In this document: one piece after another, positions 29,224 to 30,018 of the stretch
Numbering within the stretch: the first letter of the stretch is position 1
Layout of the letters: each line of letters begins with the position of its first letter
NCBI RefSeq assembly: GCF_038405225.1
Contig: NZ_CP151657.1
Location: 930,001-994,000, forward strand
Reading direction: 5' to 3'
Source: Arthrobacter citreus
GTDB taxonomy: Bacteria > Actinomycetota > Actinomycetes > Actinomycetales > Micrococcaceae
Length of the DNA: 64,000 bases
Program-made: the position numbers and the translations under genes
The notes under the pieces: generated by a model
Told to the model about the DNA's origin: nothing
The model's input: the letters and a program-made list of their open reading frames with translations, nothing else
Databases searched by the model: none

Positions 29224-30018
29224 ATGGAAACGACGACAACGGCGCCGGTGGGGTTTGTTTATGGCATCCGCCTCCGCGGAGAGCGGGAATACCGCTATGT
29301 GGGCTTGACCACCAAGACCGTCGCTCGTCGTTTCGCTCAGCATCTGAAAGCCGCTCGGGGCGGCCGCAGGACCCCCTTCTATGACTGGCTTCGTAAGCAG
29401 GACCAACATGGGGTCCGTGCGGATGAACTGCAGGAAGTGTGGGACCTGGCCGACCTCGGCCAGTCAGAGATCAATTGGATTGCCTACCTGAAACGGGATG
29501 GAGACCGCCTTTTGAATCTTTCGCGGGGTGGTCTTGGCCCCGCAGGCGTTCCTTGGACAGCCGAGCAGCGTGAAGCTGCTCGGCTCAGGTCCACCGGACG
29601 AAAAGGGCTCAGCCGCTTCGGCGAAGACAACCCGTTCTACGGGCGGTCGCATACTCCGGAGCAACGCCTCAAATGGGCGGAGGAGCGGAAGGGCCAGTAC
29701 GCTGGTCAGGAGAACCCAAACTTCGGCAAGTTCGGCGCCGAGCATCCCGGATTCGGACATTCCATGACGGCAGTAGCCCGCCAGGAACTGTCGGAAGCCA
29801 GGACCGGTGCAGGCAATCCAAACTTTGGTAAGCAGGCCAGCGCGGAAACCAGGGCAAAAATGTCTGCGGCTCGATTAGGACGTCCCAAGCCCTCAAGTCG
29901 CCGCAGCGCCCACACCAGACATCACACCAATAAAGGCATTGAGAAAGCCGGATGCAGGTATTGCGTCGAGAACTCAGCCACACCAAGTCTCTCTTCAGAA
30001 AGCGAATCGGAGTCATGA
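29224..30018 (+). CDS. GIY-YIG/NUMOD3 homing-endonuclease-like protein inside the nrd operon
   Basis: 264 residues. The GIY-YIG nuclease motif appears as VYGI (12-15) ... YVG (25-27), with the conserved Arg near 36 (ARRF), the catalytic Glu82 (QSEINWI) and the LLNLSRGG motif at 96-103. Three NUMOD3-type DNA-binding modules follow: DNPFYG (135-140), NPNFGK (164-169), NPNFGK (198-203). A His/Cys tail (HTRHH at 230-234, CRYC at 244-247) could bind zinc. It starts 17 bases after nrdE and overlaps nrdF by four bases (ATGA). Architecture matches free-standing homing endonucleases of phage; nuclease activity is inferred. Confidence 0.88.

Follow-up and report, generated by a model that had tools for sequence, protein, structure and literature searches.

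A free-standing GIY-YIG/NUMOD3 homing-endonuclease-like gene between nrdE and nrdF of Arthrobacter citreus

The window analysed in this study, a stretch of 64,000 nucleotides of Arthrobacter citreus DNA, contains a class Ib ribonucleotide reductase (RNR) operon with the gene order nrdH-nrdI-nrdE-(264-aa gene)-nrdF (Table 1). The preliminary description of this DNA placed a 264-residue GIY-YIG/NUMOD3 gene exactly between nrdE and nrdF, joined to the latter by an ATGA overlap, and both the open reading frames and the HMM searches agree with that description. Sixteen bases separate the end of the nrdE reading frame (29207) from the start of the endonuclease gene (29224), and the TGA of the latter (30016-30018) overlaps the ATG of nrdF. 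The same ATGA overlap joins nrdI to nrdE if nrdE starts at the Met codon at 27069. By NCBIfam profiles nrdE and nrdF are both intact beside the endonuclease gene, which is thus free-standing. One nrdF was found in the genome among the matches listed (E up to 1e-20). Because the genome yielded no RNR large subunit (PF02867) other than NrdE, nrdEF, and with it the operon that holds the endonuclease gene, is probably essential.

Table 1. Features of the nrdHIEF operon and its inserted gene (positions in the window)
Feature	Position	Strand	Basis
nrdH	26253..26498	+	TIGR02194, 105.5 bits; start approximate, by eye within ORF 26196-26498
nrdI	26593..27072	+	TIGR00333, 145.3 bits; start approximate, by eye within ORF 26458-27072
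nrdE	27069..29207	+	TIGR04170, 1261 bits; probable ATG, ORF open from 27042
Left side of the carrier-linked footprint (final 30 nt of nrdE)	29178..29207	+	g10 columns
Palindrome CGGTTAGCTAACCG between nrdE stop and endonuclease start	29208..29221	.	sequence
Free-standing GIY-YIG/NUMOD3 homing-endonuclease-like gene, 264 aa	29224..30018	+	ORF, HMM, fold, conserved residues
GIY-YIG nuclease domain, residues 11-98 (GIY, YVG, R36, E82, N98)	29254..29517	+	Pfam residues 11-50, Foldseek, conserved residues; right limit is the residue corresponding to N98, not HMM-derived
Best-scoring NUMOD3 DNA-binding repeat, residues 178-214	29755..29865	+	Pfam
C-terminal H-x3-H ... C-x2-C motif (H230, H234, C244, C247)	29911..29964	+	invariance
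ATGA overlap, endonuclease stop / nrdF start	30015..30018	+	sequence
nrdF	30015..30989	+	TIGR04171, 488.6 bits, cut-off 355
nrdF codons 2-7, recoded in carriers	30018..30035	+	carrier/empty comparison

A failure of HMM searches to find GIY-YIG or NUMOD3 had been named in advance as an argument against the description, and this was not the outcome. Pfam assigned NUMOD3 with E 4.4e-16 (58.9 bits, cut-off 20.4), while GIY-YIG was marginal, its score of 22.1 bits (E 1.9e-4) lying slightly below the cut-off of 22.6. Three NUMOD3 repeats had been described; two stretches are scored by the HMM and the third is visible by eye only. One NUMOD3 place was found in the genome. Membership of the GIY-YIG superfamily is supported by the fold and by the key residues. 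An AlphaFold model built from 27 relatives, in which high confidence is largely limited to the first 100 residues (mean pLDDT 65 overall; block means 72-90 for residues 11-100), had the I-TevI catalytic domain as its top Foldseek match (1mk0; probability 1.00, E 0.015, TM 0.76 by target length); nothing was found in that search at E 0.001 or better. When solved structures were searched by sequence the best match was again I-TevI (1i3j), at a non-significant E of 0.059. In the GIY-YIG fold the catalytic residues are those of the GIY and YIG motifs together with an Arg and a Glu. Tyr13, Tyr25, Arg36, Glu82 and Asn98 of the window protein, which we take to correspond to catalytic positions of I-TevI, are the same in every one of 19 aligned relatives (12 bacterial, seven from phage or viral-catalogue records), as are H230, H234, C244 and C247. 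The latter four are also invariant in 27 of 27 family sequences; the zinc site proposed earlier for this motif is possible, this invariance being the one observation that bears on it. PHROG 314 (homing endonuclease) matched the protein at 8.1e-13. For TIGR01453 (group I intron endonuclease) the score of 46.1 bits is below the cut-off of 56.05. Pfam listed no HNH family at E up to 10, which does not place the protein in the family of T4 MobE, and PHROG gave a single weak HNH match (E 0.067).

Two other readings of the locus were considered and given up. An intron-borne endonuclease was rejected, as Rfam at E up to 0.1 lists no intron in ten loci, including L002, which covers the junction in the window; the single listing in the ten is a sub-threshold PYLIS_2 in L058 (24.7 against 36 bits). 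The palindrome CGGTTAGCTAACCG that follows the nrdE stop was not upheld as part of the element. Because inverted repeats occur here in many relatives that lack the endonuclease gene ("empties"), it is probably a host feature. Inverted repeats with a stem of at least five are present in 13 of 17 carriers and 24 of 57 empties of the genus g10 (Fisher p 0.025) and at six of eight junctions with other inserts, the shuffled rate being 0.13; for the window's genus the counts are one of four carriers and two of 23 empties. A different inverted repeat, GTACGACGGCGGG...CCCGCCGTCGTAC, is common before nrdF in empty spacers of g10 (L074 and L083, for example) and was not seen by eye at the printed carrier junctions.

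The distribution of the gene is patchy. In the window's genus, where nrdE is present in all 29 genomes, the endonuclease gene is found in four and has no match in 25. Among 395 genomes of the family, an even sample drawn from a larger group, 365 have no match and 30 do, across seven of 32 genera. The gene is therefore not a fixed, conserved part of the operon in close relatives, which was the other outcome that had been set against the preliminary description. The 30 matches comprise 26 long copies and three remnants, every one of them at nrdE|nrdF, and one distant relative (G157) whose locus contains neither nrdE nor nrdF. In a scan of named genomes, ten loci in Arthrobacter and Pseudarthrobacter records were all at the junction, five of them repeating copies already counted, as judged by identical translations (L062, L063, L066, L069, L070); 31 distinct long copies are known in the family. 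At the level of the order, 12 of 396 genomes match, and the seven outside the family, which come from four other families, are again all at nrdE|nrdF, with ATGA or GTGA overlaps to an nrdF that is longer (junctions read by eye). At the level of the class, five of 394 match; the one that is new is a truncated, frameshifted copy after nrdE in G944, whose nrdF is on the opposite strand at a distance of about 2.3 kb. Eight plasmid records match, all at less than 60% identity and with a best coverage of 62%.

The site without the gene can be described as well. In 23 of the 25 non-carriers of the window's genus, read at the junction, nrdE and nrdF are separated by a spacer of 39-62 bp with ACAAGGA before nrdF; G004 and G012 were left out of this reading, the nrdE fetched from them having no adjoining nrdF in the locus. 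The intact site to be looked for in insert-free strains is in this way described in part. In a sample of 100 non-carrier junctions of the family, taken from among the nrdF matches listed, the spacer is 37-136 bp long in 91, counted up to the codon that aligns with codon 1 of nrdF, and nine hold other inserts of 575-661 bp. In carriers the whole spacer is replaced, from near the nrdE stop to the nrdF start. Such a presence/absence polymorphism at one orthologous site is what would be expected of a free-standing homing endonuclease. In three loci, L026 (G012), L029 (G004) and L035 (G021), nrdE is without nrdF downstream within the fetched stretch, and each of these genomes has a second nrdE match on another contig.

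Other insertions were seen at the same junction. Seven g10 genomes (L094, L104, L111, L112, L117, L120 and L140) carry a different insert of 575-661 bp that reaches the nrdF start codon. Its left end is conserved, and among its short ORFs is one of 32 residues that recurs in several. With the L104 insert as query, matches were found only at the junction in those seven genomes and none in the window's genome; Rfam gave no match in the six inserts searched (L112 excepted) and Pfam none for one 32-residue peptide. The 647-bp insert of L172 (G036) encodes a cytidine-deaminase-like protein (PF00383, E 1.4e-6). Inspected by eye, the 580-bp insert of L127 (G386) resembles none of the others; a hairpin and the usual leader of nrdF are still present at this junction.

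Evidence for movement comes from comparison of the carriers in the window's genus, the genome of the window itself being G000. In a tree of rpoB and polA empty genomes fall between the carriers G000, G007 and G024/G006: the sister of G000 is the empty G002 (support 1.00) and G024 groups with G006 (0.98), the grouping of G007 with the empty G018 being weak (0.16). Between G000 and G024 dS is 0.22 for the endonuclease, 0.29 for nrdE, 0.28 for nrdF and 0.58 for polA. Because the endonuclease dS is below that of polA, the gene appears to have been exchanged between these lineages after their split. For G024 and G006, dS is 0.28 for polA and 0.39 for the endonuclease; for G000 and G007 the endonuclease is the more diverged, at 1.47 against 0.55 for polA. 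The copy of G006 is mosaic against that of G024: the two (the pair L003-L004) are 96-99% identical over most of their first two thirds, with 63% identity at the start and 71-82% in the last third (overdispersion p 1.6e-15). Identity is uneven along the gene at p<3e-5 in the 15 listed of 21 close pairs, which share sequences and to which uneven constraint along the gene may add. These comparisons suggest a gene that is mobile and spreads from genome to genome at one spot. At the family level the endonuclease and nrdEF trees broadly agree, so that old descent with loss could account for much of the spread, and transfer between families of bacteria, which we had considered, is not supported at that level. 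One empty junction, L009 (G018), has a nrdF start that matches the carriers G000 and G007 from about codon 7, possibly the trace of a lost copy or of recombination.

Carriers differ from empties also in the bases next to the insert. Among 17 carriers and 57 empties of g10, eight columns are linked to the gene at p<1e-4 in the last 30 nt of nrdE, and in nrdF four columns within nt 1-30 and one within nt 31-60; there are none further out, to 480 nt in nrdE and 420 nt in nrdF. Position 12 of nrdF is A in 17/17 of these carriers and 0/57 of the empties. This test left out 35 junctions of other genera, eight with other long inserts and the carriers outside g10; the 17 carriers include the broken copies L050 and L071 and five (L064, L065, L067, L068, L071) placed in g10 by the record name Arthrobacter and not by a genus label. 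With the 12 tool-labelled carriers, nrdE positions -25, -24, -23 and -13 and nrdF positions 6, 12, 15 and 21 remain, and again no linked columns lie further out. Were the carriers simply a single clade at nrdE or nrdF, linkage further out would be expected, and its absence argues against this. In the window's genus, nrdF position 13 is the single fully diagnostic column and nrdE has none. The G+C content of nrdF codons 2-8 is 0.40 in 26 carriers and 0.53 in 107 empties, with a p of 1e-14 that is overstated since the sequences are related. The footprint may come from co-conversion of the flanks with the gene; selection on the nrdF start could give part of it. The recoded start could also be an adaptation to coupled translation, and self-immunity and better initiation are both possible explanations for it.

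The relation between the endonuclease gene and nrdF is close. In 25 of the 28 open family copies the endonuclease stop overlaps the nrdF start, 19 times as ATGA, three times by a longer stretch and three times by one base. It had been proposed that translation of nrdF may depend on the element, and these overlaps, together with three remnants of which the 3' end alone is left, speak indirectly for this. The calculated pairing with the anti-Shine-Dalgarno sequence does not: it is no weaker in carriers (median -9.1) than in empties (median -8.3; p 0.35), and the loss of a strong nrdF ribosome-binding site in carriers was not supported by this comparison. By eye, most carriers have GGAG two bases from the nrdF ATG. 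In the Shine-Dalgarno and G+C comparisons broken copies and other inserts were each grouped separately, and L053, L147, L154, L155, L163-L165 and L172, in which the aligned codon 1 is not ATG, were left out, as were repeats, copies from other families and, without good reason, L034.

Copies in several states of decay are found at the junction. Of the 31 distinct long family copies 28 are open and long, among them L055, which has lost the GIY motif; in L050 a stop interrupts that motif, L057 and L071 carry frameshifts, and L058-L060, from three species, keep about the last 30 codons next to nrdF. The 3' end is retained in all seven of these decayed copies. This pattern and the overlaps suggest that the endonuclease 3' end took over the nrdF start and that the two genes may be translationally coupled. 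A dead or dying relic, a former homing endonuclease that is now inactive and kept only because its 3' end serves nrdF, would account for the three remnants that consist of a 3' end only and for the nonsense, frameshifted and motif-deleted copies. We consider it highly improbable as an account of the family: nearly all the long copies are still open (L055 among them without its GIY motif), the catalytic residues are conserved in the copies aligned, and the median dN/dS of the endonuclease is 0.11, against 0.082 for nrdE and 0.052 for nrdF. These medians are from 58 of 378 pairs with an endonuclease dS of 0.05-1, in a set that left out the broken L050, L057 and L071 and five repeats and kept L055.

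The low dN/dS points to purifying selection on the endonuclease gene, which also fits a host function. The gene could be an old, vertically inherited part of the operon, controlling for example the level or stoichiometry of NrdF, that has been lost many times; the overlap with nrdF and the broad agreement of the endonuclease and nrdEF trees at the family level also speak for this. This is an unlikely explanation in our judgement, given that so small a part of the family has a match, that the gene is broken or deleted in several species, that it seems to have passed between the G000 and G024 lineages after their split, that copies are mosaic, and that carrier-linked bases are confined to the junction.

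Related genes occur at the same place in phages. The best phage match is gene 111 of Arthrobacter phage Talia1610, which sits at the nrdE|nrdF junction of a phage nrdHIEF operon and is about 31-34% identical to the window protein (hhalign probability 99.8). The similar phages Mimi and Racecar lack the gene and have a 90-bp nrdE-nrdF spacer, and Atuin lacks it with a spacer of 84 bp. Between Talia1610 and Mimi, identity in nrdE drops from 99.5% in the first 1959 nt to 82% in the final 180, nrdF is 91% identical over nt 1-270, 98% over 271-600, 84% over 601-840 and 93% beyond, and the genes after nrdF differ. The left edge of this pair looks like a gain with co-conversion, and the right side, which is less simple to read, shows one or more exchanges besides. 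Gordonia phage GodonK has a GIY-YIG gene that is flanked by DNA polymerase I and nrdF; Phendrix is without it there, and in 30-nt windows the nrdF genes of the two share 90-100% identity up to nt 600. The polymerase ends of this pair do not align simply and its left edge is undefined. Since the GodonK case shares only the nrdF start with the other loci, it suggests that the target side is nrdF.

In a viral catalogue searched with the family profile, ten of 15 loci have nrdE just upstream and nine of these ten nrdF downstream; L261/L264 and L262/L263 look like near-copies, and several of the ten are on short contigs that may be bacterial. L261 is on a 158-kb contig. For the catalogue copies at the junction the identity per segment ranges over 32-67%; the highest values belong to L257 and L256, whose contigs of 4.6 and 5.3 kb may be bacterial; L256 groups with bacterial copies. 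A recent jump from phage to bacterium is not supported, as Talia1610 is at 31% and the closest viral contigs are these short, perhaps bacterial ones. On another viral-catalogue contig, positions 3001-3147 of L277 weakly match the phage endonuclease between distant genes for an RNR large and small subunit (about 25% identity).

That Arthrobacter phages carry nrdHIEF, with a nrdF start similar by eye to that of host sequences, raises the question whether the nuclease is mainly a weapon of host or phage that destroys the nrdEF region of competing genomes, either phages with their own nrdHIEF or co-infecting phages, homing being secondary. Interference by a phage intron endonuclease is reported in PMC11620839. 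The low carrier frequency is not what a generally useful defence predicts, and we regard this account as most improbable. A broader possibility, rather doubtful at present, is that phages and their actinobacterial hosts share one homing niche at nrdE|nrdF, occupied by one lineage that is at once a selfish gene crossing the boundary and a weapon: chromosomal copies would cut the nrdEF of invading phages, phage copies that of hosts or rivals, and the host's essential nrdF would be made dependent on the endonuclease 3' end.

Our results are probably best explained by a free-standing GIY-YIG/NUMOD3 homing endonuclease that is specialised on the nrdE|nrdF junction and moves by intronless homing. 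The domains and fold, the specificity for one site, the patchiness, the exchange between species, the mosaicism, the narrow footprint and the decayed copies can all be read from sequence; that the window protein cuts DNA, where its target lies, that carriers are immune, that nrdF is coupled to the gene in translation and that the footprint stems from co-conversion are deductions from these. In a genome without the gene, the protein would bind the conserved nrdF start, perhaps also the nrdE end, and cut in or near the short spacer of the empty junction. Recombination repair would then copy the gene and short flanks into the break, and the incoming cassette would replace the spacer, including nrdF's own Shine-Dalgarno sequence, and bring a recoded nrdF start that may make the carrier immune. 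From then on nrdF would be started from the endonuclease 3' end by way of the stop-start overlap. After fixation the gene would decay, its 3' end being kept, we propose, because nrdF needs it. The homing interpretation of the preliminary description is thus supported by the patchy presence among relatives, and neither of the two outcomes set against it was seen.

To our knowledge, intronless homing has been documented mainly in phages. T4 mobE, an HNH endonuclease gene between phage nrdA and nrdB, is similar in being a free-standing endonuclease gene in the spacer between two RNR subunit genes and in having a start/stop overlap that suggests coupling, mobE with nrdA and the window gene with nrdF (PMC2988022). 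It differs in being an HNH gene of a phage, next to a class Ia RNR (class as given in PMC3653736); the window gene is GIY-YIG/NUMOD3, its relatives are in bacterial chromosomes and phages, and the RNR is of class Ib. I-TevI shares the GIY-YIG nuclease fold, as the top fold match of the window protein, but is intron-encoded whereas the window gene is free-standing. The T4 seg genes are free-standing GIY-YIG endonucleases (PMC2988022), and intronless homing by SegF is named in a title cited by PMC3653736; these, in contrast to the window gene, are phage genes. The window protein differs from both I-TevI and the Seg proteins in its DNA-binding region, which consists of NUMOD3 repeats and the C-terminal His/Cys motif. 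Gene 111 of Talia1610 has the same nrdHIEF junction and the same catalytic and His/Cys residues in common with the window gene, but is of low identity to it and, as annotated, overlaps both neighbours. According to PMC3984707 and PMC3653736, group I introns, some with endonucleases, occur in nrdE and nrdF of Bacillus and its phages; these are likewise mobile and sit in bacterial and phage genes for class Ib RNR, but are introns or inteins, and Rfam found no intron in the window locus L002. Among the titles listed in our search of a mostly open-access literature, none concerned a free-standing endonuclease at a bacterial chromosomal nrdE-nrdF junction, and PMC3984707 describes little evidence that bacterial introns move horizontally among bacterial species. 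What appears to be new here is a GIY-YIG free-standing homing endonuclease at a site common to bacterial chromosomes and phages; the kind of element is already known.

One site with empty, occupied, mosaic, decayed and remnant alleles amounts to a natural experiment in bacterial chromosomes, placed in an operon with the only RNR large-subunit gene found in the genome, and related phages differ in the presence of the gene at the same site. The locus also opens to experiment the question whether capturing the start of an essential gene can make a selfish gene secure.
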